64,000 nucleotides of DNA from Pelagibius marinus (GTDB lineage: Bacteria; Pseudomonadota; Alphaproteobacteria; Kiloniellales; Kiloniellaceae). Shown here one piece after another: positions 10,314-34,051 of the stretch. Under the pieces are notes generated by a model. It saw nothing but the letters and a program-made list of their open reading frames with translations, did not search any database and was not told the origin of the DNA. Position 1 is the first letter of the stretch, and each line of letters begins with the position of its first letter. The translations under genes were made by a program, and so were the position numbers. The stretch covers positions 1 through 64,000 of the forward strand of contig NZ_JACSDK010000020.1 of the NCBI RefSeq assembly GCF_014925385.1, written 5' to 3'.

Positions 10314-12128
10314 ATGCCAAGTGCTACGGCATCAACAAACAGCAACCTGTCGTTCCGCATCGCAGAATTTGAAACACTAGTCGACGGATTGGACTACGCC
10401 GCAAAAGGCGAGACCGGGTGCAATTTCTTTTCCCCGCGCGGTGAACTGCAGCAAGCGCTTACCTACCGAGAGATTCGCGAGCGCGCTGTCGCCCTGGCGC
10501 AGCGCTTCGATCGCCTGGGGCTCGAGCGCGGCGCCCGCGTCGCCCTGGTTGCCGAGACTTCCCCGGATTTCCTGACGTTCTTCTACGCCTGCCAGTACGC
10601 GGGCCTGATCCCGGTACCCCTGCCCCTGGCCATCAACCTCGGCGGCCACGACGCTTACGTCGAGCGCCTGCGCAACATGATCGGCCGGGCCGGTGCCGAA
10701 ATCGCCGTCGGCCCAGCGGAGTTGCTGCACTACCTCCGGGAAGCGGCCAGCAACCTCAAGATGGTCGGCACGCCGGAAGATTTCTACGCCTTGCCGGCCA
10801 GCGGCGGCGACCTGCGTCCCTTCACCAAGGACGAAGCCTGCTACATCCAATACTCCTCCGGCAGCACCAGCCTGCCGCGCGGCGTCTTCGTCTCCCAGCG
10901 CGCCATTACCAGCAACGCCCGCGGCATCGGCCAGCACGGCCTGGAGCTGCGCCCCGGCGACCGCGCAACGTCCTGGCTGCCGCTCTATCACGATATGGGC
11001 CTGGTCGGCTTCTGCCTGACCCCCATGCTGAGCCAGATCACCCTCGACTACCTGGCGACCAAAAGCTTCGCCCTGCGCCCGCTGACCTGGCTGAAGCTGC
11101 TGTCGCAGTACGGCGGCACCATCTCCTTCAGCCCGACTTTCGGCTACGACCTCTGCGCGACCCGCGGCCTCAACGGCTCCGCCAAAACCATCGACCTGTC
11201 GCATTGGCGCGTCGCCGGCATCGGCGGCGAGATGGTGCGCGCCGAGATCCTGTCGCGCTTCGCCGAGACCTTCGGAGTGACCGGTTTCTCGCCCAAGGCC
11301 TTCCTGCCCAGCTACGGCCTGGCGGAATCCACCCTGGCCGTCACCTTCGCCTCGCTGGACAAGGGCGTCGAGGTCGATCGCATCGACCAGGAACACTACA
11401 CCCACACCGGCAATGTCTCGCCGGTCAACGGCAGGGCCAACGGCAAGGCAAATGGCCATGTCAACGGCCATATCAACGGCAGCGCCGCGCGTTCCTTCGT
11501 GATTTGCGGCGCGCCGATGCCCGGCCACGAGGTCGAGGTGCGCAGCGAGACCAACGCGCCCCTGGCCGACCACAACGTCGGGCGCGTCGTCGTGCGCGGC
11601 CCCAGCGTCATGGACGGCTACTTCAACGATCCGGCAGCCACCGCCGCGGTGACCACCGAGGACGGCTGGCTCGACACCGGCGACCTCGGCTACATGATCG
11701 ACGGCAAGCTGGTGGTGACCGGCCGCCGCAAGGACCTGGTGATTCTCAACGGCCTGAACATCTGGCCGCAGGACGTAGAGTGGGCCGTGGAAGCCCTTGA
11801 AGAGGTGCGCGGCAGCGACGTCGCCTGCTTCTCCGTCATCGAGACCGACGGCAACGAGCGGATGATCGTGGTCTTGCAGTGCCGCATGCACGACACGGCC
11901 GCGCGCGAAAGCCTGCGCAAGAAGGTGGTGGCCACGGTGCGCAAGACCTGCGGCGCCGACTGCCGCGTGGTCCTGGTGCCGCCGAAGACCCTGAAGTTCA
12001 CCTCCTCCGGCAAGCTGAGCCGTTCGGCGGTGAAGGCCGACTACATCTCCGGAGAGATCAGCGATCTCAATCTCGCCTCCAGCCGGCAGGCCGCGCCGAC
12101 CCCGGCCTATTCCGAGCAGCGCCGCTAG
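10314..12128 (+). CDS. Fatty acyl-AMP ligase / acyl-ACP synthetase of sphingolipid synthesis
   Basis: A 604-residue ANL-superfamily enzyme. Key motifs are the adenylation P-loop YIQYSSGSTSLPRG, WLPLYHDMGLVG typical of fatty acyl-AMP ligases, the YGLAEST box, and DGWLDTGDLGY with GRRKDLVILNG. The ATG at 10314 is preferred to the upstream ATG at 10140: AGGGA lies 7 nt before it and the 58 extra codons show no family similarity. It likely loads a fatty acid onto the dedicated ACP encoded 1.2 kb downstream for use by serine palmitoyltransferase, like Caulobacter Acs. An odd N-G-rich linker (NGRANGKANGHVNGHINGS) sits at about residues 371-390. Confidence 0.82.
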   Translation: MPSATASTNSNLSFRIAEFETLVDGLDYAAKGETGCNFFSPRGELQQALTYREIRERAVALAQRFDRLGLERGARVALVAETSPDFLTFFYACQYAGLIPVPLPLAINLGGHDAYVERLRNMIGRAGAEIAVGPAELLHYLREAASNLKMVGTPEDFYALPASGGDLRPFTKDEACYIQYSSGSTSLPRGVFVSQRAITSNARGIGQHGLELRPGDRATSWLPLYHDMGLVGFCLTPMLSQITLDYLATKSFALRPLTWLKLLSQYGGTISFSPTFGYDLCATRGLNGSAKTIDLSHWRVAGIGGEMVRAEILSRFAETFGVTGFSPKAFLPSYGLAESTLAVTFASLDKGVEVDRIDQEHYTHTGNVSPVNGRANGKANGHVNGHINGSAARSFVICGAPMPGHEVEVRSETNAPLADHNVGRVVVRGPSVMDGYFNDPAATAAVTTEDGWLDTGDLGYMIDGKLVVTGRRKDLVILNGLNIWPQDVEWAVEALEEVRGSDVACFSVIETDGNERMIVVLQCRMHDTAARESLRKKVVATVRKTCGADCRVVLVPPKTLKFTSSGKLSRSAVKADYISGEISDLNLASSRQAAPTPAYSEQRR

Positions 12129-12191
12129 CTTGGCCGCGCCGTCCGGCGCCGGGCGCAACCCGCCCCGCCCGCGCGGAGCCGACGAACAGCC

Positions 12192-13190
12192 ATGAATGAC
12201 GCAATCACGCCCCGCGGCAGCGTCGCCCTGACCGGCGGCTCCGGCTTCGTGGGCGGCCACATTCTGCGCCGCCTGGTCGCCGAAGGCTGGCAGGTGCGCG
12301 CCCTCACGCGCCGCCCCGACGGCCTGCCGCCGGTCGAGGGTGCCCCACCGGGCAGCGTAACGGCGATCCCGGGCGATCTAGAGTCCAGCGAAGCCCTGGC
12401 CGAGCTGGTCGCCGGCGCGGACGCGGTGATCCACTGCGCCGGGCTGGTCGCCGCGCGGCGCAGGGCGGACTTCCTGCGGGTCAATGCGGAGGGCACGGCG
12501 GCCCTGCTGCGCGCGCTGGAAGCCGGGAGGCAGGCCGGCGGGCCCGCCCCGCGCTTCGTGCTCATCTCCTCACTGGCGGCGCGCGAGCCGCAGCTCTCGC
12601 CCTACGCCGACAGCAAGCGCCAGGCCGAGGAGGCGCTGCGCCGCCTCGGCGCAGGGCTGGACTGGCGGGTGCTGCGCCCCGCCGTGGTCTACGGGCCGGG
12701 CGACCGGGCCACCCTGCCGCTGTTCCGCCAGTTCCTGCGCGGCCTTGCCCTGGTGCCCGGCGGCAGCGGGCGGTTCTCCATGATCTACGTCGAGGACTTG
12801 GCCGCCGCCGCGGTCGCCGCCCTGGCCCCGGAGCTGCCGGCCGGCGGCTTCCTGGGGCCCGACGACGGCACCGCCGGCGGGTATGGCTGGGCGGAGGTGC
12901 TGGCTGCCGCCGGACGCCTGGCCGGACGGCCGGTGCGTGCCGTGACCGTCCCGCGCGTCCTCCAGCGCCTGGCCGCGGCCCTCAGCACCGCCGGCGCCCT
13001 GGTGAGCGGCCGTCCGGCCGTGCTGTCCCAGGGCAAGGTCAACGAATTCGGGCACCCGGACTGGGTCTGCCGCCCGCAGCCGCCCGGGGCCCCGTCGCTG
13101 AGCGATTGCATTTCCTGGCGTCCGGCGGTAGGCCTGGACGAGGGTTTCTCCAAGACCGTCGCGTGGTATAAGGCTGCTGGCTGGCTTTGA
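12192..13190 (+). CDS. NAD-dependent epimerase/dehydratase-family reductase (CerR-like)
   Basis: A 332-residue extended short-chain dehydrogenase. The Rossmann motif TGGSGFVGGHIL is at residues 15-26 and the catalytic YADSKRQAEEAL (YxxxK) near residue 138. Its position between an acyl-ACP ligase and an ACP/serine palmitoyltransferase pair matches Caulobacter CerR, which reduces the 3-keto group in bacterial ceramide synthesis. The role is inferred from context; by itself the family is broad. It starts 63 bp after the ligase stop in the same orientation. The C-terminal 70 residues are less family-like. Confidence 0.75.
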   Translation: MNDAITPRGSVALTGGSGFVGGHILRRLVAEGWQVRALTRRPDGLPPVEGAPPGSVTAIPGDLESSEALAELVAGADAVIHCAGLVAARRRADFLRVNAEGTAALLRALEAGRQAGGPAPRFVLISSLAAREPQLSPYADSKRQAEEALRRLGAGLDWRVLRPAVVYGPGDRATLPLFRQFLRGLALVPGGSGRFSMIYVEDLAAAAVAALAPELPAGGFLGPDDGTAGGYGWAEVLAAAGRLAGRPVRAVTVPRVLQRLAAALSTAGALVSGRPAVLSQGKVNEFGHPDWVCRPQPPGAPSLSDCISWRPAVGLDEGFSKTVAWYKAAGWL

Positions 13191-13305
13191 CGCGCGCGTC
13201 CCGGACATCGTGGACAGCGCAGGCGCTGTAACGTCGCTTTGGGGGAACCAGGTAGGAAACGGGATCCCTCCCCACTTCAGAGGGTCCCGATCATGAGGGA
13301 AAGAT

Positions 13306-13557
13306 ATGCAGTGGACTGCCGATAAGGTCCAGGAGGAGATAGTCACGCTCCTCCAACCCTTTAATCCCAAGGGCATCGAGATAACGCCGGAAACCGACCT
13401 TTCGGCCGACCTCTACATGGATTCCGTCGCCGCCATGAACCTGGTCATGGAAATCGAAGACCGCTTCGAGATCGACATCCCAATCAGCCTGCTCCCGGAC
13501 GTGAACAACCTCCAGGATCTGGTCGAAGCGGTGCTTGCACAATTGAGCAAGGGCTAA
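13306..13557 (+). CDS. Acyl carrier protein dedicated to sphingolipid synthesis
   Basis: An 83-residue acidic helical protein. The phosphopantetheine attachment serine lies in DLYMDSVAAMNLVMEIEDRF, where the usual DSL is DSV. The start is supported by AGGGAAAG eight bases upstream. Encoded 4 bp before the serine palmitoyltransferase gene, it is the likely carrier of the acyl chain delivered by the upstream ligase, as AcpR in Caulobacter. It is not the housekeeping ACP: it lies away from fab genes and carries the variant motif. Confidence 0.85.
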   Translation: MQWTADKVQEEIVTLLQPFNPKGIEITPETDLSADLYMDSVAAMNLVMEIEDRFEIDIPISLLPDVNNLQDLVEAVLAQLSKG

Positions 13558-13561
13558 CCAT

Positions 13562-14776
13562 ATGAGTCTGTTCGATAAATATGATCAGGTAGCCGCCCGC
13601 CACGACCGCCTTCTGGCGGCCGGCAGAGATCCCTTCAACATGTGCATGGACCGCATCGTCTCGGCTACCGAGGCGATCGTCGACGGTCGCGAGACAATCC
13701 TGGTCGGCACCAACAACTATCTGGGCCTGACCTTCGATCCCGACTGCGTCGAGGCCACGGTGGAGGCGGTGCGCGAGCAGGGCACCGGCACCACGGGCTC
13801 GCGCATCGCCAACGGCACCTACGCGAGCCACCGGGCGCTGGAGCAGGCGATCGCGGCCTTCCTGGGCCGCAGCGCCGCCATGGTCTTCCCGACCGGCTAC
13901 CAGGCCAACCTGGGCGTTATCGCCGGCCTCGCCGGCCCCAAGGACACCATCCTGCTGGACTCCGACTCCCACGCCAGCATTTACGACGGCTGCCGTCTCA
14001 GCGGGGCGACGCTGATCCGCTTCCGCCACAACTCGCCCGCCGACCTCGACAAGCGCCTGGAGCGCCTCAAGGACGACAAGGCGAGCAAGCTGATCATCGT
14101 CGAGGGCATCTATTCCATGCTGGGCGACCAGGCGCCGCTGGACGAGTTCGTCGACGTAAAGCGCCGCCACGGGGTCGAGCTGCTGGTCGACGAGGCCCAC
14201 TCCCTGGGCGTCTTCGGCGACAACGGCCGCGGCATCGCCGAGGCTTACGACGTCGAGGACGACGTCGACTACGTTGTCGGCACCTTCTCCAAGAGCCTGG
14301 GCGCGGTCGGCGGTTTCGGCGCCTCGAGCAACCCGGAGTTCGAGCAGCTGCGCTTCACCAGCCGGCCCTATATGTTCACGGCCTCCTCCTCGCCGTCCAG
14401 CATCGCCACGGCCATGGCGACGCTGAAGAAAATCCAGTCCGAGCCGCAGCTGCGCCGGCAGCTCTGGGACAATGCCGAGGCGCTCTACAACGGCCTGAAA
14501 GACCTGGGCTTCGCGATCTGCGCCGAGACCAGTCCGATCATCGCCGTGAAGCTGCCCAGCGAGGAAGCGGCGGTCTTCATGTGGAATGCGCTGATCGAGG
14601 CCGGCGTCTACGTGAACCTGGCGCTGCCGCCGGGCACGCCGGACGGCTCCTGCCTGCTGCGCTGCAGCCTCTCGGCGGCCCACACGCCGGCCCAGGTGCA
14701 GAAGGTCTGCGAGGTCTTCGACGCGGCCCGCCGCGCCCTCAAGGAATGGGAAGCCGCCCAGTCTGCGGCCGAATAG
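13562..14776 (+). CDS. spt: Serine palmitoyltransferase (alpha-oxoamine synthase)
   Basis: A 404-residue fold-type I PLP enzyme. Motifs: NYLGLTFDP near the N-terminus, GTGTTGSRIANGTYASHRALE, DSDSHASIYDG, VDEAHSLGVFGDNGRGIAE and the PLP lysine in GTFSKSLGAVGGFG. It condenses an acyl thioester with an amino acid and is close in form to KBL/BioF. Tight linkage to a dedicated ACP, acyl-ACP ligase and CerR-like reductase makes serine palmitoyltransferase, giving 3-ketosphinganine, much likelier than BioF; no biotin genes are nearby. Cytoplasmic. Last gene of the plus-strand operon, convergent with the head-group operon. Confidence 0.85.
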   Translation: MSLFDKYDQVAARHDRLLAAGRDPFNMCMDRIVSATEAIVDGRETILVGTNNYLGLTFDPDCVEATVEAVREQGTGTTGSRIANGTYASHRALEQAIAAFLGRSAAMVFPTGYQANLGVIAGLAGPKDTILLDSDSHASIYDGCRLSGATLIRFRHNSPADLDKRLERLKDDKASKLIIVEGIYSMLGDQAPLDEFVDVKRRHGVELLVDEAHSLGVFGDNGRGIAEAYDVEDDVDYVVGTFSKSLGAVGGFGASSNPEFEQLRFTSRPYMFTASSSPSSIATAMATLKKIQSEPQLRRQLWDNAEALYNGLKDLGFAICAETSPIIAVKLPSEEAAVFMWNALIEAGVYVNLALPPGTPDGSCLLRCSLSAAHTPAQVQKVCEVFDAARRALKEWEAAQSAAE

Positions 14777-14785
14777 GCGCCGCGG

Positions 14786-15706
14786 CTATCTGAAGGCGCC
14801 CCTGCGGTAGAGCTTCCAGAACAGTACCGTCGAAGCCAGCACCGGGTGGCGGCGCTGCCAGGGCGTCAGGGTGATGGTGACGCCGGAGTGCCGCTCGATC
14901 TTCCACAACAGGTACTGCGCGCCGTCCTGGAAGGTAAAGGCCGCCTTCACCAGGCGCGCCACCGACAGCAGCTTTCCCTGCCAGCGGCGCAGCAGCCACT
15001 TGAACTCCGCCCGCCGTCGCGGCGGCGCCTCCCAGCTGTCGCCCACCGCCTGGGCGCCCAGCAGCGGCAGGACCGTCGCCGCGACCCGGGCGTAGTGCGC
15101 TGCATTGGCCTGGTAGATCTCCTCTGCCCGCTCCGGCGGTTCGGCGCGCAGCTCGCTACGGTAGGTCTGGCGGAACACCGAGACCCAGAGGTCGCGGCTG
15201 GTGAAGGTCCCCTCGACCAGGGCCAGCCCCTCGCCCGCCACCTTGCGCGCCGAAGCGGCCAGCGCCGCTACTGCGCGCGCGCGGACCGCGGCGTCACGGC
15301 AGTACGGGAGGCGGCAAGGCTGCGCGAAGCGGGCCCAGAGGTAGGGGTGGAACCATCTGCCGGAAGCGCCCTTCTCGAAATCGGCAAGCGAGATCAGCGC
15401 GTACTTGGCGCGCACCCGGCGCCCCTCGAACGGCGCTTCCAGATAGAAAACGTTCGGCGGCAGGGCCCAGTTCAGGAAGGCGCGCAGGCCCTTGCCGTAG
15501 ATCGCGCCATAGCTGTCCACCAGGACGTAGAGATCGACGATCTTGCCGTCGTCGTCGCCCAGACGCAGGCAGGACCCGTAGAAGATCACCGCCGAGACAG
15601 CCGCGCCATGGCGGGCGCGCGCGGCCTCGACGATGGCGGTGATGGGCGCGGCGACGGCCTGCGCCGTCTCCGCTTCCCGCAGGCTCACAAGCGCGTCGCC
15701 GTTCAT
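14786..15706 (-). CDS. Nucleotidyltransferase-fold protein of the ceramide head-group operon
   Basis: A 306-residue protein. Residues 41-62 (IFYGSCLRLGDDDGKIVDLY) match the polymerase-beta-type nucleotidyltransferase motif GS-x-D-h-[DE]: G44-S45 and D58 are present, but the second acidic residue is Tyr60, so catalysis is uncertain. The rest is helical and basic with the conserved-looking segment RRRAEFKWLLRRWQGKLL. It is last in a tightly packed minus-strand operon, 3 bp after the lipid kinase. In Caulobacter a comparable three-gene set makes the ceramide phosphoglycerate head group; this is inferred to be its third member. Confidence 0.65.
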   Translation of the reverse strand: MNGDALVSLREAETAQAVAAPITAIVEAARARHGAAVSAVIFYGSCLRLGDDDGKIVDLYVLVDSYGAIYGKGLRAFLNWALPPNVFYLEAPFEGRRVRAKYALISLADFEKGASGRWFHPYLWARFAQPCRLPYCRDAAVRARAVAALAASARKVAGEGLALVEGTFTSRDLWVSVFRQTYRSELRAEPPERAEEIYQANAAHYARVAATVLPLLGAQAVGDSWEAPPRRRAEFKWLLRRWQGKLLSVARLVKAAFTFQDGAQYLLWKIERHSGVTITLTPWQRRHPVLASTVLFWKLYRRGAFR

Positions 15707-15709
15707 CTG

Positions 15710-16681
15710 CTAAAGCCTCACGAAGCGGGCTTCGTCGGCGGCGGTCAGGACAATCTCCTTGCCCGGCGTCGGCTCGAAGATCTCGCCGTCCAGGGTGAAG
15801 GGACAGTCCATGGCCAGCGCCACGCGGCGCACGCTGCGGCTGAGGTAGGTCTCCGGCGCCAGCTTGCGCTCCGGCCCGCCGTAGAGAATGCGTAGGGCAT
15901 AGCGCAGTATCCCCTTGGGGGGATAGGCGATGGCGGTGAAGCGCAGGTGCCCCGCATCGCCGCCCCAGAAGGGCCGGCTGCCGAGGATCAGCTTGTCCAG
16001 CGTGGTCGCCAGCACCAGCAGGCTCTCCAGTGTCTCCCTCGGGGCTTCGTCGAAGGTCATCGCGATCCTGTCGCCGTAGAAGATGCTGCCTTCCTTGCGG
16101 CCGCCCTTGCCGCCGCGCAGCAGCCAACCGCCCAGCAGACCTGCCAGGGTCACCGCCGCCGCCGAGTCCGACTTGATGTTGTAGGGATGGACCTTGCTGC
16201 GGCAGGCCTCGATGGCTCGGGTGATCCCGGCGCCGCCGAAAAACATACCGTATTGCGGCTGATGGTTCAGGGCGTTCTCCAGCCGCAGGATGCGCCGGGT
16301 AAGGCAGGCCCGGGCCAGCGTTTCCGCGTCAGCGGCCAGGAGGCGCTGCAGCCCCTTGAGGCCGCGCCGTTTCAGGCCGACGTCGGCGGCGATCATGTTG
16401 GTCATGCCGCGCGGCACCACGACCAGCAGCGGGTCGCTTTCGAAGGGGCGCTGGCCGTAGAGCTCGGTCAGTGCCGCCTGCACCGTGCCGTCGCCGCCGG
16501 CCACGGCCACCACGCCGACTTCCCGTCGGGCGAAGCCGCGCAGGATCTCCGGGATGTCGGTGATCTTGTCGAGGATGGCGTGCTCGACGTTGGACGCGCC
16601 GTCGAGCAATTCCCGCAGTTCGCCCAGGCCCGCCTTGTTGCGCTGGCTGCCGGGGTTGGTGATGACGCCGATCCTGGGCAT
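15710..16681 (-). CDS. Diacylglycerol/ceramide-kinase-family lipid kinase
   Basis: A 323-residue DAGK-catalytic-domain protein. It begins VITNPGSQRNK, carries the nucleotide-binding GGDGT at residues 62-66 (VAVAGGDGTVQAAL), and ends with the typical lipid-kinase beta domain (CPFTLDGEIFEP). These enzymes phosphorylate a lipid hydroxyl with ATP. Context favours ceramide as substrate, as for Caulobacter CpgB. The ATG at 16681 is chosen because the product starts at the kinase fold; a GTG at 16699, overlapping the upstream TGA in a GTGA junction, is an alternative that adds six residues. Confidence 0.78.
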   Translation of the reverse strand: MPRIGVITNPGSQRNKAGLGELRELLDGASNVEHAILDKITDIPEILRGFARREVGVVAVAGGDGTVQAALTELYGQRPFESDPLLVVVPRGMTNMIAADVGLKRRGLKGLQRLLAADAETLARACLTRRILRLENALNHQPQYGMFFGGAGITRAIEACRSKVHPYNIKSDSAAAVTLAGLLGGWLLRGGKGGRKEGSIFYGDRIAMTFDEAPRETLESLLVLATTLDKLILGSRPFWGGDAGHLRFTAIAYPPKGILRYALRILYGGPERKLAPETYLSRSVRRVALAMDCPFTLDGEIFEPTPGKEIVLTAADEARFVRL

Positions 16682-16695
16682 CTCGCCGCCGGCGC

Positions 16696-17850
16696 TCACG
16701 CCGGCCCCGCCATCCAGGAGCGCAGCTTGCCGCGCCGCGCCGCGAAGAGCGCCTGCGCGATCTGCAGCAGGTGCAGCAAGAGGCAGAGCGCGGTCCAGAC
16801 CGCCACCGCCGCGAGGCCAAGGTCCGGGCGGCCAAGGAGCGCGAAGAGCGTCAGCAGCACCAGATTGGGATTGCGCCGCGCGGTGAAGAGGCGGAACCAG
16901 GTATCGACCTTGCGCCAGACGTGGATCTCCAGGCCCAGACGCCAGATGGCGAGCCCTTCGACGACCCGCTGCAGCACGTAACCGGCGATGATCACCACGA
17001 GCAGCAGTGCGAGGCTGTCGGGACTGACGGCCTGCTGCAACCCGACGCCCCAGGCCCAGTACCAGAAGGGCGGATGGACCAGGTCGATGCCGTGGTCGAA
17101 GACATTGCCCCACTTGCTCGACTGGAGGGTGATGCGCGCCAGCTTGCCGTCGACGGTGTCAAGGAAGGTCATACCCCAAGCGGCCAGCAGACCGGGCAGC
17201 CAGTTGCCTTCCCAGAACCAGTAGAAGGCGGCGACGACCAGGACCGCGCTCAGCGCCGTCACCTGGTTCGGCGTGATGCCGAGGCGCGCGCAGAGCTTGG
17301 TCACATGAAAGGCCGGACGTGGCCAGAACCACTTGGTGACGAAGTCGGTGGCGCCCTTGTAGGTCCCCATGAACATGCGCCACTCGATGGGCTTCAGGCG
17401 CTCCTGCTGCAGCAGCAGCGCGTAGGGTTCCTCGCGCTTGCGCAGCGCCTGCCAGTAGGAGGCGCCGAGATCACCGCTGCTCACGGCCTTCAGGCCTTCG
17501 GGCAGCTCCCCGGCGCTGTCACGGCGCAGGACCCCAGCCGCCGCGCCCGCCAGTCCGGCCGGCGCATGAATCGCCAGGGGCACGCCTGCCGGCGTTCCGT
17601 TGGAGAGCAGCACGGCGCCCGGCGCCGCGAGCAGGGCCTGGAGCAGCGGCGTGTCGATGACGGCGTCGGAGCGCAGCAGCAAGACGGAACCTTCCTGCCC
17701 GGCCAACGCGCCTTCATCGACGAGCTGCGTGACACCGGCCCTGGCGAGCTGGCGGCGCAGGCGGTCGGACGCGGCGGCGCACCACACCTGGGGGTCGGTG
17801 GCCCCGGCGATGGCGGCAGCTGCGGGCCGTGACTCCTTCTCAGCGCGCAA
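16696..17850 (-). CDS. CDP-alcohol phosphatidyltransferase with an unusual N-terminal domain
   Basis: A 384-residue membrane protein. The C-terminal part holds the CDP-alcohol signature DG-x2-AR-x8-G-x3-D-x3-D (DGKLARITLQSSKWGNVFDH, then GID) and about five or six membrane helices. The N-terminal 150 residues are soluble and contain VLLLRSDAVIDTPLLQALLA, recalling the nucleotidyltransferase half of IPCT-DIPPS fusions but without a GxGxR loop, so probably degenerate. It likely transfers a phospho-alcohol from a CDP donor in building an anionic ceramide head group. It is followed by the lipid kinase 14 bp downstream. Confidence 0.78.
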   Translation of the reverse strand: MRAEKESRPAAAAIAGATDPQVWCAAASDRLRRQLARAGVTQLVDEGALAGQEGSVLLLRSDAVIDTPLLQALLAAPGAVLLSNGTPAGVPLAIHAPAGLAGAAAGVLRRDSAGELPEGLKAVSSGDLGASYWQALRKREEPYALLLQQERLKPIEWRMFMGTYKGATDFVTKWFWPRPAFHVTKLCARLGITPNQVTALSAVLVVAAFYWFWEGNWLPGLLAAWGMTFLDTVDGKLARITLQSSKWGNVFDHGIDLVHPPFWYWAWGVGLQQAVSPDSLALLLVVIIAGYVLQRVVEGLAIWRLGLEIHVWRKVDTWFRLFTARRNPNLVLLTLFALLGRPDLGLAAVAVWTALCLLLHLLQIAQALFAARRGKLRSWMAGPA

Positions 17851-17982
17851 GTGAACTCTCTTTGCAGAACATTGTTATGGAAATCAGAGGTTTGGCGAGT
17901 ACCCTCCGGACGGCGACGAGGCGCCGGGAAGGGCGGTTCCGCTCCATTAATCGGACCCGGCGGCGCTTGTCAAGGAAGCCAC

Positions 17983-19065: not shown

Positions 19066-19072
19066 GGACCGC

Positions 19073-20329
19073 TCACTCCGACGCGCGGCGCTTGGCAAAA
19101 CCGCCGCGCAGCATCTGCGCCAGCCCTTCCAGCGCGGCGATCGGCGACCAGCGCTGGCGGCGGCCGCGCGGCACCAAGAAGGCGCTGCGGTAAAACAGCA
19201 CGCCGCTGAGCAGCGTCAATACGACAAAAGGCAGCCACAGGCCGACCAGCGGCGACACCAGACCTACCGCTGCCCAGCCCTTGCCGACGTTGAGCACCTG
19301 GTTGTAGAGGACAAGGACCAGCAGCCCGACGGCAATGCCGTAGCTCTGCCGCCCGCGCCGCGGCCCCAGTGCGAAAGGCACCGCCAGAAAGGGCAGCAGC
19401 AGCACCGACAGGCTGCGCACGATGCGGTCGTGGAAGTCGGCCAGCATCTCCAGCGTCGTGGTGTCCGGCGGCGGCGCGTGCCGATAACGCCACAGCTCGA
19501 AGAGCGTCAGCTCGCGCTCGTCCTCACCGCGCGGCCGAAAGGCGTCCTGCCCAACCAGGTCGATGGGCACCTGCAGTTGGTCGAACTGCAGGGCGCCGGA
19601 TTGTCCGCTTGAGAACTCGTCACTTCCGGCCAGCCCGCTCCCCACCTGTGTCGGGCCCGGCAGCGGGGTTTCGAGTCGCACGCCATCGCGCAGCAGCAGC
19701 GTCGATTTCTCGCCCGCCGGCGCGACATAGAGGCTGCCGCGCTCCGCCGTGGTGGCCACGCCCCGATCGCTGCCGCCGTCGGGGTCCGCTTCGGTCTCCT
19801 GATAGATGAAGACGCGCGCGAACTCGCGGCTGTTGCGCCAGATTCGCTCGGCCATGAAGGTCACGCCCTCGACCTCCATGAAGGTGCGCTCCTTCAGGTA
19901 GACGTTGGCCGCGGCCTTCTCCACGTTATGCACCAGGGCGCGGTAGACGTAGCGGGTGTAGGGCTGGCCGACCGCAAAGTTCGCCGCCGAGAGAACGGTG
20001 AGCCCGAGGCCAAGCAGGATCACCGGTGTCATGAGCCGCGACAGGCCAATGCCGGCGGCGCCCAGGGCATCCAGCTCGTTCGCCTGGTACAGCCGGGTGA
20101 AGGCCAGCAGCACCCCCAGGAAGAACGCCACCGGCAAGGCCAGGGCCATATAGTGGGGCACCAGGAAGGCCAGCATCTGCAGCAGCACGGTCAGGCCGCC
20201 GCCCGTGTCGAGCACCAGGTCGAGCAGACGCAGCATGCGCTCCGTGAGCAGTACCAGCAACGCGATGCCGATGGCTGCGAAGAGTGGGCCCAGCGTCTGC
20301 CGCAGAATATAGCTGTTGATCGTCGACAT
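19073..20329 (-). CDS. lptF: LptF-like permease (YjgP/YjgQ family)
   Basis: A 418-residue protein starting MSTINSYILRQTLGPLFAAI. Membrane helices are at about 12-35, 55-80 and 100-122, then a periplasmic jellyroll region of about 180 residues, then helices at about 297-318, 325-345 and 352-372. FTRLYQANELDALGAAGIG is the family coupling-helix segment. It pairs with lptG downstream to form an Lpt-type permease powered by LptB, which is not in this window. A HIT-family gene ends 27 bp upstream. The C-terminal tail after residue 380 is longer and more basic than usual. Confidence 0.87.
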   Translation of the reverse strand: MSTINSYILRQTLGPLFAAIGIALLVLLTERMLRLLDLVLDTGGGLTVLLQMLAFLVPHYMALALPVAFFLGVLLAFTRLYQANELDALGAAGIGLSRLMTPVILLGLGLTVLSAANFAVGQPYTRYVYRALVHNVEKAAANVYLKERTFMEVEGVTFMAERIWRNSREFARVFIYQETEADPDGGSDRGVATTAERGSLYVAPAGEKSTLLLRDGVRLETPLPGPTQVGSGLAGSDEFSSGQSGALQFDQLQVPIDLVGQDAFRPRGEDERELTLFELWRYRHAPPPDTTTLEMLADFHDRIVRSLSVLLLPFLAVPFALGPRRGRQSYGIAVGLLVLVLYNQVLNVGKGWAAVGLVSPLVGLWLPFVVLTLLSGVLFYRSAFLVPRGRRQRWSPIAALEGLAQMLRGGFAKRRASE

Positions 20330-20355
20330 GGACCGGGCGCCGGCGCTCTCTCTCG

Positions 20356-20817
20356 CTACTCGCCTGTCGTGCCGGGCCAGGCGGCCTTCAGCGCCGCAAC
20401 CAGGGCGGCCTGCGTCTCGGCATCCGGCTGCACGCCGCCGGTGAGATCCGGAACCGCCGGCCAGCCGGCGTCCGCGTAGACCGTGCCGTCGAAGATCTGA
20501 TCGGCTTCGTAGCGCGGCAGGACGTGGAAGTGCACGTCCTTGTCCACCATCATCAGCATCAGGTAGTTGATCTTCTGATAGGGGCGGAAGGCGCTGAGGC
20601 CTGCCTCGATATCGCTGATAACCTGCTGCAGCTGGGCGAAGGCTTCGCCCGAGATGTCGCTGAAAGCCTCCGCCTCGTCCCTGCAGATCAGCACCAGCGC
20701 GCCCAGCGTCGCCTGGTGCGGACGCAGCAGAACCACCCAGCGGCCGTAGTCGTGGATCAGGCTGCCGGGGTAGCCGAACTTGGCCATGGTGCCGTTGGGC
20801 TTACTTGACAAAATCAC
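20356..20817 (-). CDS. HIT-family hydrolase, first gene of the lpt/head-group operon
   Basis: A 153-residue histidine-triad protein. The signature reads VDKDVHFHVLPRYE: two histidines of the HxHxH triad are kept while the first is Asp, a variant I recall from other alphaproteobacterial HIT proteins. HIT proteins hydrolyse or transfer nucleotide phosphoesters. The GTG at 20817 is used because PNGTMAKFGYPG looks like the family's conserved N-terminus; the internal ATG at 20787 would cut it. Being 27 bp upstream of lptF, it probably belongs to the same transcript, perhaps processing CDP-linked intermediates; that role is inferred. Confidence 0.72.
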   Translation of the reverse strand: MILSSKPNGTMAKFGYPGSLIHDYGRWVVLLRPHQATLGALVLICRDEAEAFSDISGEAFAQLQQVISDIEAGLSAFRPYQKINYLMLMMVDKDVHFHVLPRYEADQIFDGTVYADAGWPAVPDLTGGVQPDAETQAALVAALKAAWPGTTGE

Positions 20818-20967
20818 GCCGCGGTCCTACCTCGCTTGCATTGACGCCGGTCGCGCGCCCCATTGGGTTTTGGGGACAGCGGGGGGATGGCAGCCACCCC
20901 TGCTCCGTAATACCAGATGGTGCCGCCCCAGGCACCCTTCCGGCCCGCAATGAATGGGAATGCGAAC

Positions 20968-21510
20968 ATGGGTCCCAGTTCCCGTACGGTCCAGTCAAAA
21001 GATGCGATCCCGCCGCTGCTGACGGCGTTCTTCGTGGCGGCCGCCCTGGCCTTGGCCACCCTGTCCCCGGCGCGGGGCGAAGAGCCCGTGGTGGCCAAAT
21101 GCGCCGCCGGGGCGGCGGGCGACCCCAATGCCCCCACCCCGGGCACGGTCCAGGTGGCGGGGGATAAAGTCCGCAATTCCAAGGGCCTAATCACCGCTGT
21201 TCTCTATTCGGACGACCCCAAGACCTTCCTGAAGAGCGGCAAGAAGCTCGACCGGATCCGGGTCGAGGCCCATGAGGGCGAAACCGTGCTCTGTCTGAAA
21301 GCCCCCGCCAACGGCCGCTATTCGGTGGCACTGTATCACGACGAGAACGGGAACAAGAAATTCGACCGGGACTTTCTGGGCATTCCCGTCGAGGGTTACG
21401 GCTTCTCCCAGAACCCGGGCTTCCGCTTCGGCAAGCCGGAATTGGAGGAGACGCTCTTCACCATCAACAGCGCCCTCACAAGTCTGCGGATCTCAATCCT
21501 CTACCTCTAG
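20968..21510 (+). CDS. DUF2141 secreted protein
   Basis: A protein of about 180 residues with a signal segment (LTAFFVAAALALATLSPARG) and a DUF2141 domain. The hallmark is YHDENGNKKFDRDFLGIP followed by EGYGFSQNPG, an Asp/Asn-rich, possibly calcium-binding loop. DUF2141 proteins are small periplasmic or outer-membrane-associated proteins of unknown function. In-frame ATGs at 20950 and 20917 are alternatives; 20968 gives the most compact signal peptide. It diverges from the HIT/lpt operon and converges with the phosphoesterase gene. Confidence 0.75.
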   Translation: MGPSSRTVQSKDAIPPLLTAFFVAAALALATLSPARGEEPVVAKCAAGAAGDPNAPTPGTVQVAGDKVRNSKGLITAVLYSDDPKTFLKSGKKLDRIRVEAHEGETVLCLKAPANGRYSVALYHDENGNKKFDRDFLGIPVEGYGFSQNPGFRFGKPELEETLFTINSALTSLRISILYL

Positions 21511-21522
21511 GGCCGTCGCGGC

Positions 21523-22446
21523 TTACAGGTCATAGCTGCGGGCTTCGCGGAAGCTGCCGCTGGCCGGATCGAAGCCGCGCGACCTGACCCCGATGCGCCA
21601 GCCGTTGCCCGCCTGCTCGATGTCGTAGAGCTGGTAGTGGGCGATCGGATGCTTGCTTTCGCGCCCGGCCGAGGCCGAGGGCACGCCGATCACCGGCACG
21701 CCGGCATCGGGTCCGGCGATCTGCTCGGCGCCGAAGCTGTGGTCGTGCCCGTGGAGAATCAACTCGGCCCCCGCCTCGGCGATGACCTCGCGGAAAGGCA
21801 CGGCGTCCACCAGGCGCTTGCGCCAGGCGATCCTGTCCAGACTGGGCGGATGGTGCAGCAGCACCACGCGGAACCAGCCCTGCTCACCCAGGCGCTGCAG
21901 CAAACTCCGCAGACGCTCCAACTGGGCCGTGCCCAGAGTGCCGTGGGCGCAGAACAGCGGTGTCGCTTGGGCCGAAGAGAGACCGATGATGGCCGCCGGA
22001 CCACGATAGCGCACGAAGGGGAAGGCCTCCGGCCCGCTTTGGGCCTCGGCATCAGCGCCGGCGTTCTCCCCTGCCCCCGCCTCGCAGGTCATGAAGGGCT
22101 GCCACTTGGCCAGCGAAGCCTCCCAGGGCAGCGTCACATAAGCATCATGATTACCGGGGATCACGGTGACGGCCTCCGGCGTGCCGAGGCCATGCAACCA
22201 CTCGGCGACGCGGGAGAATTCCTCCAGCAGCGCGATGTTGGTCAGATCGCCGGTCACAACCAGATGGTCGGGCGCGCGGGCGCCCAGATCCTCGGCCAGG
22301 GCCGTCAGCACCTCCGGGCGGTGGATGCCCTGGCGCCGGCGCATCCACGACAGCCAGCCGAAAAAACGCTTGTTCATCAAATCCCTGGCCCGGACCGGTG
22401 GCAGCGGGCCGAGGTGCGGGTCGGAAATATGGGCCAGGGTGAACAT
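21523..22446 (-). CDS. Calcineurin-like metallophosphoesterase
   Basis: A 307-residue enzyme with all metallophosphatase blocks: HISDPHLGPL (residues 6-15), VVTGDLTNIA, VIPGNHDAYV, LLHHPPSLD and LILHGHDHSFG. These bind two metals and hydrolyse phosphomono- or diesters. No signal peptide is seen, so it is cytoplasmic. Sitting between the lipid head-group genes and cytidylyltransferase-like genes, it could act on a lipid or nucleotide-alcohol intermediate, but substrate specificity cannot be read from the motifs. Confidence 0.85.
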   Translation of the reverse strand: MFTLAHISDPHLGPLPPVRARDLMNKRFFGWLSWMRRRQGIHRPEVLTALAEDLGARAPDHLVVTGDLTNIALLEEFSRVAEWLHGLGTPEAVTVIPGNHDAYVTLPWEASLAKWQPFMTCEAGAGENAGADAEAQSGPEAFPFVRYRGPAAIIGLSSAQATPLFCAHGTLGTAQLERLRSLLQRLGEQGWFRVVLLHHPPSLDRIAWRKRLVDAVPFREVIAEAGAELILHGHDHSFGAEQIAGPDAGVPVIGVPSASAGRESKHPIAHYQLYDIEQAGNGWRIGVRSRGFDPASGSFREARSYDL

Positions 22447-22502
22447 CAGGCAGAATCCGCCGCCCCAAGGCAGCTCAAAGGTTGACGTAACACAAGGAAC
22501 AT

Positions 22503-23333
22503 GTGATCAAAACCGCCTGCGTGAAAGCCAAAAATCGCCACCTGGGATCCATATCCGCGTTGAAAGCCCTGATTATCGGCGCCGGCCAAGGCAAGCGCCT
22601 GCTCCCTCTCACGGAAGTGGAGCCCAAAGCCCTCCTCGAAGTCGGCGGCAAGTCGCTGCTGGAATGGCAGATCGAATCGCTGATCGCCTGCGGTGTCGAA
22701 GACATCGTGGTGCTGGCCGGCTTCAATCTGGCCGCCGTCGAAGAGCGCCTGGAGAGCTTCGCCCGTCGCTGGCCCTCGGCGAGCTTCCGCTGCGTCTACA
22801 ATCCCTTCTACGGCGTCGCTGATAACCTGGCGACCTGCTGGATGGCCCGCCACGAGATGGTCGGGGACTTCCTGCTGCTGAACAGCGACACCCTGTTCAG
22901 CCTGCCGGTGCTGGAGACCCTGCTGGCCAGCGCGCCGGCCCCGATCAGCCTGGCGGTGGACCACAAGGAAAAGTACGACGACGACGACATGAAGGTGCAG
23001 CTGCAGGACGGCCGCCTGCTCGACATCGGCAAGAAGTTGCCGGCCGAGCGGGTGCAGGGCGAGTCCATCGGCATGCTGTACTTCCGGGGCGAAGGCCCGC
23101 GGCATTTCGCCGCAGCCCTGGAGGCCGCCATGCGCGACCCCGCGGCCATCCGCCAGTGGTACCTCTCCGTCATCGCGGCCCTGGCCCCCAAGGTCGAGAT
23201 CCAGGCCGTCACCATCAGCGGGCGCGACTGGTGCGAGATCGACTATCCGGTGGACGTGCAGACGGCCAAGCGCATGGTTGCCTCCTGGCGCCCCAAGCCG
23301 GACGACAACCTGGCCGCCGCCGAGTCCTCCTGA
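22503..23333 (+). CDS. Phosphocholine-cytidylyltransferase-like nucleotidyltransferase
   Basis: A nucleotidyltransferase of about 276 residues with a GT-A-like fold: LIIGAGQGKRLLPLTEVEPK (signature loop, here GAGQGKRL), FLLLNSDTLFS (acidic metal site) and CEIDYPVDVQTAKRM at the end. It resembles LicC-type CTP:phosphocholine or phospho-alcohol cytidylyltransferases and could supply the CDP-alcohol for the CDP-alcohol transferase in the neighbouring operon. The start is uncertain: GTG at 22503 adds about 19 residues before the fold, and TTG at 22560 would give the typical short N-terminus. Confidence 0.75.
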   Translation: MIKTACVKAKNRHLGSISALKALIIGAGQGKRLLPLTEVEPKALLEVGGKSLLEWQIESLIACGVEDIVVLAGFNLAAVEERLESFARRWPSASFRCVYNPFYGVADNLATCWMARHEMVGDFLLLNSDTLFSLPVLETLLASAPAPISLAVDHKEKYDDDDMKVQLQDGRLLDIGKKLPAERVQGESIGMLYFRGEGPRHFAAALEAAMRDPAAIRQWYLSVIAALAPKVEIQAVTISGRDWCEIDYPVDVQTAKRMVASWRPKPDDNLAAAESS

Positions 23334-23339
23334 GTCCCC

Positions 23340-24140
23340 TCAAGCCTTCGCCAGAATCTCTTCGACCAGCGCCAGGTCCTCCGGTTTGTCGACGTCGATG
23401 GCCGCCTCGGCGAAAGGCATCTTTACCGCCGCCACGCTGACGCCCAGGCGCGCCGAGACGCGCCCCATGGCCTGGTCCAGGGTGAAGCGGCGCAGCAGAT
23501 AACCGAGCAGCAGCCTCGGGCCGAAGACGGCGGCGATGCGCCAGGGCCGCTTGCGCTGCTGCTCGACCCGCAGCCACAGTTCAGGCAGCGCCCTGGCCGC
23601 CGGGCTCATCAGCGCAAAGAGATTGCTGCCCGAATAGCGCTCGTCGCGGAACGTCAGGTAGGTGCGCCTGGTCTGCGGATAGCGCGCCAGCAACACCCCC
23701 GCGGCAGTGAGGCCAGCGGTCACTTCAGCCCCTGACGCCCGGCTGGCGGCGCAGAAGTGATCCACCATCTCGGTTGTCAGCAAGGCATGGTCGGCGGTGG
23801 TGACCAGCAGTGGAAAGGGCCGGTCCAAGCCGGTCGCGGCCTGCAGCACGCTGCGGCTGGGCGAGCCCGCCGCCTGCAAGGCGGTGAGCCGTCCCCCCGC
23901 CACCAGCGGCGCCAGGGCCGGCAATTGCGCCAGCAGCGCCGTATCGCGCAGGGAGACGGCAATGCGACCCACCTGGGCGCTGGCCGCCAGGGCGGTAACC
24001 ACCCGTTCCAGCATGGCGGTGCCGGCGACCGGCGCCAGGCACTTGTGCGCCACCCCCGCGGCTTGCGAAACCGGATCGTCGGGCCCACGGTCCGCCGCCA
24101 GCACCAGGGCGGTGAAGGACGCCGCCGGGGCGTGGGTCAT
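23340..24140 (-). CDS. MobA-like NTP transferase of the ceramide operon
   Basis: A 266-residue nucleotidyltransferase-family protein. The loop near residue 15 (LVLAADRGPDDPVSQ) departs from GxGxR, but HKCLAPVAGTAMLERVV, LVTTADHALLTTEMVDHF and AAIDVDKPEDLALVEEIL are standard NTP_transf_3 segments. The ATG at 24140 overlaps the stop of the upstream acyltransferase gene (ATGA), so it is co-translated with the probable ceramide synthase. Its substrate is unknown; a head-group precursor is the simplest guess. Confidence 0.72.
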   Translation of the reverse strand: MTHAPAASFTALVLAADRGPDDPVSQAAGVAHKCLAPVAGTAMLERVVTALAASAQVGRIAVSLRDTALLAQLPALAPLVAGGRLTALQAAGSPSRSVLQAATGLDRPFPLLVTTADHALLTTEMVDHFCAASRASGAEVTAGLTAAGVLLARYPQTRRTYLTFRDERYSGSNLFALMSPAARALPELWLRVEQQRKRPWRIAAVFGPRLLLGYLLRRFTLDQAMGRVSARLGVSVAAVKMPFAEAAIDVDKPEDLALVEEILAKA

Positions 24141-25336
24141 GACCCGAGCTCGCGGGCGTAGACACGGTAGGTCTTGTAAGCTTCGCCGCCGAATTCCTCG
24201 ATCATCCGCCGCATGGGCAGGTTGTCTTCCAGGATCCACGACAGCTCGCCGCCTATCACCCCCAGCGCCGTCTGTTCGCGGCGGATGGCGTCGATCACCG
24301 AGAGCGCCAGCGTGGCGCCCATCAAGGAGTTCTGATAGGCCTTGCGCACGCCCATCAACGGCACGCGCCCTGTCTTGGTCGTCTTCACCTTGAGTCGCCA
24401 CAGCAGCTTTGCCCAGCCGAAGGGCAGCAGGCGCCCGTTCAGATCGCTGATGGCCTCGTTCACGTTGGGCAGGCTGATGGCCATGGCGGCCGGCTCGCCC
24501 TTCAGCTCGGCGATGGCGATCGACTGCGGCCGAACGATGGGCTTCAGCTCCTTGGCCAGGTGGCGCAGGTCCGCCTCCGACATGGGGATAAAGCCCCAGT
24601 TCTCCGACCAGGCGTCATTGAAGACGTCGACGATGATGCGCAGATCGCGCTCGTAGTTGCGCATATCCAGGGGACGGATGGTCAACTGCTCCGCCGCCGC
24701 GGTCTTGCGCAGCACATAGGCGGCGGCGGGCGGCAGTTCATGCGCCGCCTCGTAGTAGTAGCAGATGAGGTCCTTGATCTTGTGATAGCCCAAGGCCTCC
24801 AGCCGCGTGGCGTAATAGGGCAGCGCGTGGCCCATCATCAGCGAGGGCGGATACTGGAAGCCTTCCACCAGCAGGCCGGATTCCTCGTTGATGGAAAGGC
24901 TGAAAGGGCCGGCAATGCGTTTCAGGCCCTTTTCGCGCAGCCAATCCTCCGCCGTCTGCAGCAAGGCAGCGAAGGTCTCCGCGTCGTCCTCGGCTTCCAA
25001 CATACCGAAATGGCCCGTGGCGTCGTGGTGCCGGCCCAGGTGCGCCCGGTTCACCTGGGCGGAGATGCGGCCGACCGGGCGACCGTCGCGCAGCGCCAGC
25101 CAGAACCGCGCCTCGGCGTTCTGGAAGAAGGGGTTCTTCTTCGGGTTCAGGTGGTCGCGCCGCTCCATCAGCAGCGGCGGAACCCAGGCCGGGTCGTCGC
25201 GGTACAGCGCCCAGGGTAACCGGATGAAAGCCTCGCGGTCAGCGGAGCTCTCGACGGGCTTTATCGTGAGAGATTCCCCGGTCTGCGAAACCCCGGTCTG
25301 CAATGCCCCGGTCTGCGAAAGCCGCGGCGCGCTCAT
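24137..25336 (-). CDS. GNAT-fold acyltransferase, probable bacterial ceramide synthase
   Basis: A 399-residue protein. After a short repetitive N-terminus, a region begins WALYRDDPAWVPPLLMERRD, followed by NPFFQNAEARFWLALRDG and later GFIPMSEADLRHLAKELKPI. This is the large GNAT-like acyltransferase family that includes the Caulobacter bacterial ceramide synthase, which N-acylates a long-chain base. Family assignment is from memory of that protein's form and from context. The ATG at 25336 overlaps the hydroxylase stop (ATGA), and its own stop overlaps the next start, so three genes are coupled. Confidence 0.72.
   Translation of the reverse strand: MSAPRLSQTGALQTGVSQTGESLTIKPVESSADREAFIRLPWALYRDDPAWVPPLLMERRDHLNPKKNPFFQNAEARFWLALRDGRPVGRISAQVNRAHLGRHHDATGHFGMLEAEDDAETFAALLQTAEDWLREKGLKRIAGPFSLSINEESGLLVEGFQYPPSLMMGHALPYYATRLEALGYHKIKDLICYYYEAAHELPPAAAYVLRKTAAAEQLTIRPLDMRNYERDLRIIVDVFNDAWSENWGFIPMSEADLRHLAKELKPIVRPQSIAIAELKGEPAAMAISLPNVNEAISDLNGRLLPFGWAKLLWRLKVKTTKTGRVPLMGVRKAYQNSLMGATLALSVIDAIRREQTALGVIGGELSWILEDNLPMRRMIEEFGGEAYKTYRVYARELGS
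25276..25320. repeat. Three tandem 15-bp repeats inside the acyltransferase gene
   Basis: Three adjoining units with consensus CCCCGGTCTGCGAAA (25276-25290, 25291-25305, 25306-25320); the middle one differs at the end. On the coding strand they encode the repetitive N-terminus LSQTGALQTGVSQTG. In-frame 15-bp units can change copy number without shifting the frame. Confidence 0.85.
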
Positions 25337-26094
25337 TCCTGGCGGCCGCGCCGCAGCACCGCGCTGCCGGGCGTGATGCCCGAGAGCGAGGCGACCCACG
25401 GGAAGCGCGCGGTCTCCGGCCCCGTGTAGCCCAGATTGAACACCGTCTCGCTGCGCGGGAAAGACTTGGGCTCGGCGTAGAAGGTCCCGAAGAGCCGGTC
25501 CCAGAAATAGTTGGTGATGCCGTAGTTGCCGTGCTCACTGTGGAAGTGGTGCGCCAGGTGATAGCGCTTGATGCGGCGCAGCCATTCCTGCTTCGGCGTG
25601 AAGGGCAGGTGCTGGATGCAGTGGCAGAACTCGTAGAAGCAGGTGGTCAGCATCCCTGTCGCCGCCGCCAGGGCCGCCGCGCCCGGCCCACCGATCAGCC
25701 AGCCGATGGGGATGGTCACCATCAGGATCGTGGGCAGCGTGGTGTAGAGGGCGCCGAACAGCACGCCCAGGTCGTTGGGGTCCTGGTGGTGGTCGAAATG
25801 GATGCGCTTCCACAGCGCCGCGGTCTGCGGGAACCTGTAGAGCGTGCGCCCGTGCAGCACGAAGCGGTGAAGCAGGTACCAGACCAGGGGATAGACCAGG
25901 ATCGTCGCCACCACCGCCGCGGCCAGGGCCAGCGGCTCGCCGCCCCAATAGGCCGCCAGGGCGACACCGACAACGCTGAGCAGCGCATAGGCCTGAATTG
26001 CCGGATAGGTCACATAGGCCCAGACCAGCTCTCGCAGGTTCATCTTGTCCAGAAAGTACTTGCGGCCGGACCAGGATGTTCTGGCAAACAACAC
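25333..26094 (-). CDS. Sterol-desaturase/fatty-acid-hydroxylase superfamily enzyme
   Basis: A 253-residue di-iron membrane enzyme. The histidine boxes are HRFVLH, HFDHH and, after more membrane segments, HLAHHFHSEHGNYG; HCIQH adds another. About four membrane helices precede and separate the boxes. These enzymes hydroxylate or desaturate lipid chains using oxygen. Because its stop overlaps the start of the ceramide-synthase-like gene, hydroxylation of the sphingoid base or N-acyl chain is a reasonable inference. Start at the ATG at 26094; a later Met (MNLRELVWAYV) is also possible. Confidence 0.82.
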   Translation of the reverse strand: MLFARTSWSGRKYFLDKMNLRELVWAYVTYPAIQAYALLSVVGVALAAYWGGEPLALAAAVVATILVYPLVWYLLHRFVLHGRTLYRFPQTAALWKRIHFDHHQDPNDLGVLFGALYTTLPTILMVTIPIGWLIGGPGAAALAAATGMLTTCFYEFCHCIQHLPFTPKQEWLRRIKRYHLAHHFHSEHGNYGITNYFWDRLFGTFYAEPKSFPRSETVFNLGYTGPETARFPWVASLSGITPGSAVLRRGRQE

Positions 26095-33889: not shown

Positions 33890-34051
33890 GGCCCATCTAT
33901 TTGCAGGAATCGCCGGGGGGTCAAGGCGAAAAGACACTCGCGAGCCCGACGGTCGCTGCCTTCACAGGCAGGGCCGTCATCATCCCGCCCAGAATGCGCC
34001 CTTTGTGGTCAAAAGGGCATCGTCCGGATCGGCGGACGGCCTTGTCATCGT

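Follow-up and report, generated by a model that had tools for sequence, protein, structure and literature searches.

How do bacterial sphingolipids reach the outer membrane? The route is stated to be unknown in the part available to us of a 2024 account of Caulobacter (PMC11324152), where it is suggested that a second LptC, LptF and LptG (CC_1168, CC_1156 and CC_1155) move phosphosphingolipids to that membrane, a suggestion not investigated further in that part. The same question is raised by a locus of Pelagibius marinus. In the window considered here, the whole 64,000-nucleotide stretch that was analysed (C20:1-64000 in a 35-contig genome of 5.44 Mb), genes were identified with Pfam and NCBIfam profiles, and a near-complete sphingolipid locus spans positions 10140-26094 with an LptF/LptG pair inside it at 17983-20329. 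These profiles confirm the list of sphingolipid genes with embedded LptF/LptG drawn up in an earlier reading of the letters and open reading frames (the sequence-only reading). We put at roughly 80% the probability that this pair, LptF2 and LptG2, would work with a shared LptB to load head-grouped ceramides onto a shared Lpt bridge leading to LptD.

Is this pair simply the LptF/LptG set of the genome? The sequence-only reading stated that lptF and lptG usually lie with lptD/surA or pepA, and proposed a search for a second set beside lptD/surA. A Pfam search of the genome returned four LptF/LptG genes, and the other pair has exactly this setting, with pepA pointing away from it and lptD, surA, pdxA and ksgA downstream. 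A third contig carries lptC-lptA-lptB-rpoN as a group. The idea that the window holds the only set is rejected, since a separate canonical pair exists; a recent copy of the canonical pair is likewise rejected on the basis of sequence identity (21% for LptF and 21% for LptG) and the deep tree split described below. The window pair is a paralogue of the canonical LptF/LptG. Its likeness to a canonical LptB2FG lies in conserved coupling glutamates and a near full-length profile match, with PF03739 (cut-off 27.9) covering model positions 2-351 of 353 in LptG2 (194 bits) and 2-353 in LptF2 (224 bits). It differs in its low identity, its neighbourhood, altered lipid-contact residues and scores below the NCBIfam equivalog cut-offs (LptF2, TIGR04407, 217.5 versus 230; LptG2, TIGR04408, 206.1 versus 240). 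Profiles of the window type, hereafter type 2, match solved LptF and LptG chains (PDB 6mhu, 5l75, 6s8g and others) over nearly full length.

Does the paralogue keep company with sphingolipid synthesis? A sample of 192 genomes of the same class (Alphaproteobacteria) was scored for serine palmitoyltransferase (SPT, gene spt) with a single family model, NF047599, such that SPT-positive means above its cut-off and five genomes with matches of 305-331 bits, below it, count as negative (G006, G028, G062, G089 and G114). SPT is present in 29 of the 192, LptF/LptG in 184, and LpxC, from which the presence of lipopolysaccharide (LPS) is read, in 164, the LpxC-negative status of 8 of the remaining 28 being assigned by exclusion. 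A first tree held 123 LptF and LptG rows and a careful tree 62 LptF rows, the LptG rows and a very long LptF row from contig C2 of G018 being omitted from the latter; the canonical rows do not cover every canonical pair of the 192 genomes, and the full classification rests on a profile search. The LptF tree, which the sequence-only reading had proposed to build, separates 27 window-type rows from 35 others (type 1) with support of 100/100, and all 27 come from SPT-positive genomes. The same 27 pairs group on the LptG side, with support of just 86 in the first tree. A profile made from the 27 type-2 LptF recovers the same 27 across the 192 genomes at 435-531 bits, the next match scoring 191. 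In leave-one-out tests type-2 LptF score at least 351 bits and canonical ones at most 180; the two types of LptG are less widely separated (at least 264 versus at most 230). The long LptF branch of G064 adjoins the window type in the careful tree, a join flagged as possibly false, and by profile this protein is not of the window type (125 bits).

Window-type LptF thus classified occurs in 27/29 SPT-positive genomes and 0/163 SPT-negative ones (Fisher test, p ~7e-31, for genomes that are related to one another). As a coarse control for relatedness, five families contain both SPT-positive and SPT-negative genomes (f2, f28, f42, f77 and f79), and LptF type tracks SPT in 5/5. In 19 of the 27 genomes, spt and the pair share a contig and are no more than 20 kb apart. 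The number of LptF/LptG genes tells the same story from another side. Among SPT-positive genomes with LpxC, 12/13 have at least four LptF/LptG matches, of both types, the thirteenth (G064) having two, neither of window type. Among those lacking LpxC, 15/16 have exactly two matches, both on the window-type side, and the sixteenth (G055) has none. Of the 151 genomes with LpxC and no SPT, G018 alone exceeds two matches, through a highly divergent additional pair that is not of the window type. Where both markers are missing (12 genomes), there is no match in six cases, two in five and three in one. A sharp genomic rule emerges, with the exceptions named here: a genome has as many LptFG types as it has surface-lipid pathways (LPS, sphingolipid). 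One lone gene was also seen, a canonical-side LptF at L138:6654-7901 (G072); the stretch fetched around it shows no LptG partner, and the genome has a pair elsewhere.

The association was also viewed from the side of the pair. A scan of genomes of GTDB species gave 380 stretches with relatives of the type-2 profiles, and the best 80 by likeness, a non-random set of which at least 6 are also in the class sample, were kept as named loci. By profile, every one of them belongs to type 2. The closest LptF relatives are from a Kiloniellaceae metagenome-assembled genome (MAG; 70% identity) and Pelagibius litoralis (61%), and a Robiginitomaculum MAG (L263) is among the set. An SPT homologue (phmmer, at least 300 bits) lies in the kept flank of 49/80 loci; of the other 31 genomes, 22 have SPT above the cut-off elsewhere, 2 have a partial match (L198 and L213) and 7 have none. 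Five of those seven (L203, L207, L208, L215 and L225) are MAGs with a ceramide synthase homologue in the locus. Much of the window's gene set recurs around window-type LptF in these 80 loci, and for this reason the gathering of genes is not due to chance. The proposal of the sequence-only reading that the pair is a sphingolipid-dedicated paralogue is therefore supported by paralogy, the tree and co-occurrence with SPT, from which transport itself is predicted.

What would the pair work with? LptD, LptB and LptC were sought in 31 genomes, the 29 SPT-positive ones plus G018 and G072. LptD is found in 30/31, at one locus each (in G191 split across two contigs), and G055 has none. LptB is found in 28/31, as one copy in 27 and two in G125; none turned up in G055, G163 and G173, for which only some of the candidates were scored. 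The window genome has one LptB (G000:C9:469168-469878). In LpxC-negative genomes with a type-2 pair, LptD is kept in 15/15 and LptB in 14/15. LptC was detected by Pfam in 27/31 (not in G047, G055, G112 and G173). A class-specific LptC profile, with matches in or beside the loci that built it skipped, gave no convincing LptC in the fetched type-2 loci, although a very divergent LptC2 could escape it; among the matches listed, the top two from such loci are a fragment of an outer membrane efflux protein (L227, E 0.058) and a 104-residue frame (L239, E 0.16). The coupling-helix glutamates, which we take to be the residues coupling LptF and LptG to LptB, are conserved, with LptF E84 kept in 35/35 type-1 and 27/27 type-2 proteins and LptG E88 in 31/32 and 27/27. 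Because LptD is single, LptB is usually single, both are kept in LpxC-negative genomes and the glutamates are retained, we infer a shared LptB and a shared bridge.

What, then, would the pair carry? The genes around it, with strand and supporting match, are as follows (homologue counts refer to the 80 named loci):

10140-12128, plus strand: fatty acyl-AMP/ACP ligase (aasR/acl); PF00501 191.5 bits, NF006624 752 bits (cut-off 600)
12192-13190, plus: CerR-like NAD-dependent reductase (short-chain dehydrogenase/reductase); PF01370 93 bits; homologue in 49/80
13306-13557, plus: acyl carrier protein (ACP); PF00550 42.6 bits
13562-14776, plus: SPT; NF047599 638 bits (cut-off 500)
14786-15706, minus strand: 306-residue protein, CpgC-like by position; homologue in 64/80
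15710 to ~16700, minus: ceramide-kinase-like lipid kinase (CpgB-like); PF00781 (DAGK_cat) 47.8 bits; 63/80; start uncertain, the open frame extending to 17113
16696-17850, minus: CDP-alcohol phosphatidyltransferase-like protein (CpgA-like); PF01066 39.8 bits; homologue in 49/80
17983-19098, minus: LptG2, LptG-type permease; PF03739 194 bits; type-2 side of the first tree
19073-20329, minus: LptF2, LptF-type permease; PF03739 224 bits; type-2 side, 100/100
20356-20817, minus: HIT-like protein directly upstream of lptF2; PF01230 17.5 bits (below the cut-off of 21.5); PDB 2oik match, E 7e-4; homologue in 41/80
20917-21510, plus: DUF2141 protein; PF09912 94 bits; homologue in 20/80
21523-22446, minus: metallophosphoesterase, CC_1158-like by domain; PF00149 50 bits; homologue in 68/80
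22503-23333, plus: nucleotidyltransferase (nucleoside triphosphate, NTP, transferase); PF00483 and PF12804, 41 bits each; 39/80
23340-24140, minus: MobA/CofC-like NTP transferase, CC_1153-like by domain; PF12804 45 bits; 60/80; start picked from the translation
24137-25399, minus: bacterial ceramide-synthase-like GNAT protein; PF00583 28 bits; homologue in 63/80
25333-26094, minus: fatty acid hydroxylase; PF04116 84 bits; homologue in 45/80
26193-26951, minus: 2,3-bisphosphoglycerate-dependent phosphoglycerate mutase; TIGR01258 259 bits (cut-off 81.7); homologue in 5/80, the five nearest relatives L192-L196
32171-33937, minus: MsbA/HepA-like ATP-binding cassette (ABC) exporter; PF00005/PF00664; homologue of 488-632 bits in 10/80, and of 650 bits beside acl in G106

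The plus-strand ligase, reductase, ACP and SPT genes face the minus-strand block that runs from the 306-residue protein to the HIT-like protein. Three labels of the sequence-only reading need qualification. The acyl ligase was correctly identified, with a start placed 174 bases further in than 10140; the gene at 14786-15706 is present, but its nucleotidyltransferase-like label was given by eye and Pfam, NCBIfam and PDB searches of the protein returned no match; and the HIT gene is present with a Pfam score short of the cut-off. Absent from that reading's list were the DUF2141 gene, the metallophosphoesterase, both NTP transferases (22503-23333 and 23340-24140), the phosphoglycerate mutase and the ABC exporter.

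Taken together, the locus product is probably a head-grouped ceramide of the phosphoglycerate type. Head-group genes were sought in the stretches fetched around spt and LptFG, and a kinase or CpgC homologue is found there in 25/27 genomes with the pair; the other two, G010 and G125, have neither in these stretches, the rest of the genome not having been searched. Within 20 kb around spt, G055 and G064 have no homologue of the kinase, CpgC or the CDP-alcohol transferase. Because of this pattern, a head-grouped ceramide would fit as the cargo of the pair. Ceramides alone do not call for LptF2G2, since G055 and G064 are SPT-positive without a window-type pair. The same kinase, CDP-alcohol transferase and nucleotidyltransferase types occur in the pathway of the CpgB ceramide kinase and the CpgD phosphoglycerate cytidylyltransferase, as far as the available part of PMC12275187 describes it. 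The window cluster differs in adding the phosphoglycerate mutase, and its head group is predicted from the genes. At the edge of this presumed ceramide phosphoglycerate cluster, the mutase could possibly supply the phosphoglycerate head group. The nucleotidyltransferase at 22503-23333 would serve head-group activation, and the HIT-like protein may act on nucleotide-activated head-group intermediates. The triad region of the HIT-like protein reads D-V-H-F-H in the window, and H-V-H-x-H in 8 of 54 homologous frames.

Do the proteins themselves bear marks of a different lipid? In the cryo-electron microscopy structure of sfLptB2FG with LPS, according to the part of that paper available, LptG K40 together with LptF K317 binds the 4'-phosphate, LptG K41 contacts the inner core, and LptF R33 with LptG K34, K62, R133 and R136 binds what the paper labels the 1'-phosphate (PMC6744409). 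We inspected 20 LptG and 19 LptF positions, both G018 C2 rows being excluded. A lysine or arginine stands at LptG 40 in 28/32 type-1 versus 1/27 type-2 proteins, at LptG 41 in 29/32 versus 4/27, and at LptF 30 in 2/35 versus 27/27; LptF R33 is kept in both types (27/35 and 25/27). Charge totals of LptF regions show no difference between types in three of four regions. Such a signature would suit a lipid with one head phosphate and without the second glucosamine phosphate or the core, and LptG 40/41 and LptF 30 may be setters of lipid specificity. It is a family trend and is not peculiar to the window pair.

We infer the substrate, the direction of transport, the shared use of LptB, LptC, LptA and LptD and the role of a flippase as follows. 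The locus would make a head-grouped ceramide and also encode the pump that lifts it from the inner membrane, with LptF2 and LptG2 standing in for LptF and LptG in an extractor of the LptB2FG type. Flipping of the ceramide to the outer leaflet would fall to the ABC protein at 32171-33937 or to MsbA. LptB2F2G2 would then extract it laterally and push it onto the common periplasmic LptC/LptA bridge, along which it would pass to the single LptD. The ABC exporter is a candidate sphingolipid flippase by analogy with CC_1166, described as a potential flippase in the part of PMC11324152 available.

Several observations weigh against this reading. The sampled genomes share kinship, so that the counts are not independent, and LPS loss is read from LpxC alone. 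Two SPT-positive genomes depart from the pattern: G064 has a pair of non-window type only, and the LpxC-negative G055 has no LptF/LptG, LptB, LptC or LptD match. The signature positions were chosen post hoc from the 39 inspected; LptG 34, an important LPS contact in the structure, has an acidic residue in almost every row of either type and does not discriminate between them; a basic residue at LptG 133 is commoner in type 2, with R in 12/27 there and in none of type 1; and in the window's own genome LptG 40/41 reads D-R in the canonical protein and N-R in the window protein. No LptC2 was found, the genome holding one LptC by Pfam with E up to 1. In Caulobacter, CC_1156 is not among the spt co-fitness partners listed in the available part of PMC11324152. 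Finally, two named loci, L204 and L227, have type-2 pairs without SPT by genome search and without a ceramide synthesis gene in the locus. G055 (L097) consists of one contig, which carries SPT and ceramide genes and gives no LpxC match.

L204 and L227 are real exceptions that break a strict SPT link, and they bear on another claim of the sequence-only reading, that homologous pairs in species without spt would speak against a dedicated role: such pairs are rare, occurring in none of the 163 SPT-negative genomes of the class sample and in 2 of the 80 named loci. Might the pair then export some other lipid or intermediate, tied genetically to the ceramide cluster, instead of ceramide itself? In favour of this are the SPT-free pairs of L204 and L227. 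L204 comes from Defluviicoccus sp. SSA4, a MAG that bears the label complete genome, and has its pair close to a homologue of the cluster phosphoesterase and to sulfotransferase, glycosyltransferase and ELM1-like genes; in L227 (a Rhodospirillales MAG) the pair sits among housekeeping genes. With SPT in 49/80 loci, above the cut-off elsewhere in 22 more and partial in 2 more, and with no kinase or CpgC near spt in the two SPT-positive genomes that lack the pair, which points to head-grouped ceramide, we regard this alternative as improbable. Still less can be said for a second LPS exporter serving an LPS variant of sphingolipid-producing species. Although both proteins exceed the Pfam LptF/LptG family cut-off and their own genome has LpxC, 15 LpxC-negative genomes keep this pair only, the pair is missing from all 163 SPT-negative genomes, 151 of them with LpxC, and most type-2 LptG no longer have basic residues at the positions that bind the 4'-phosphate of lipid A and the core; we consider it very improbable.

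A different doubt concerns the shared bridge alone and is otherwise compatible with ceramide export, so that its odds overlap those of the reading we prefer. The pair could have its own bridge and outer-membrane exit, forming a complete second Lpt system. An LptC2 is reported for Caulobacter in the available part of PMC11324152, and a divergent LptC2 or LptA2 could escape the profiles used; against this stand the one LptD locus and usually one LptB of two-pair genomes, the retention of both in LpxC-negative genomes and the unchanged coupling glutamates, and we judge a separate system unlikely. If ceramide loading onto a shared bridge is taken further, we lean, by a little, towards a general alphaproteobacterial arrangement in which lipid-specific front ends, LptB2F1G1 for LPS and LptB2F2G2 for head-grouped ceramides, feed one LptC/LptA/LptD path, and LPS-losing lineages dropped the LPS front end. 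If true, the Lpt machine of such lineages, LptD included, has become a sphingolipid exporter and LptD is not an LPS-specific translocon; the data suggest that LptD is able to carry lipids other than LPS. The Caulobacter proposal would become a genomic rule testable in a few strains.

How does the window compare with Caulobacter crescentus? The region CC_1152-CC_1168, in the available part of PMC11324152, likewise combines ceramide genes, genes of the CpgA, CpgB and CpgC types and a second LptF/LptG, a likeness of the gene sets as described and not of directly compared proteins. As there, the window genome has a second LptFG besides the canonical pair, embedded in an spt/head-group cluster. The two differ in that an LptC2 is reported for Caulobacter and none was detected in the window genome; three beta- and gamma-proteobacteria are likewise described as lacking CC_1168. 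Here, moreover, ~6 kb separate the flippase candidate from the block, and a HIT-like gene lies directly upstream of lptF2. The same source gives a co-fitness of 0.60 for CC_1156 with CC_1159 (CpgA) and names orthologues from six further proteobacteria, two of them Sphingomonas wittichii and Zymomonas mobilis. The idea of sphingolipid transport by LptF2/LptG2 and its presence in sphingomonads are therefore already in print, to judge from that part. Searches of one open-access library, with most subscription journals outside, gave only PMC11324152 as bearing on a sphingolipid role of LptFG, and no printed account was found of the counts, of LpxC-negative genomes with only a type-2 pair and one LptD, or of the signature. 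What is added here to the prior proposal is the counts, the single LptD and the residue signature.

Further genes flank the cluster. Between 27065 and 31318 on the plus strand lie ELM1-like, KdtA-like and 467-residue methyltransferase-domain genes, whose order is the same in L192-L196; the methyltransferase-domain protein has homologues in four named loci beyond these. Upstream of the acyl ligase, a LuxR-type response regulator (8084-8770, minus strand) accompanies FIST-domain and histidine kinase genes (4621-8141), and these genes may regulate the cluster. L192 too has a homologue of the LuxR gene.

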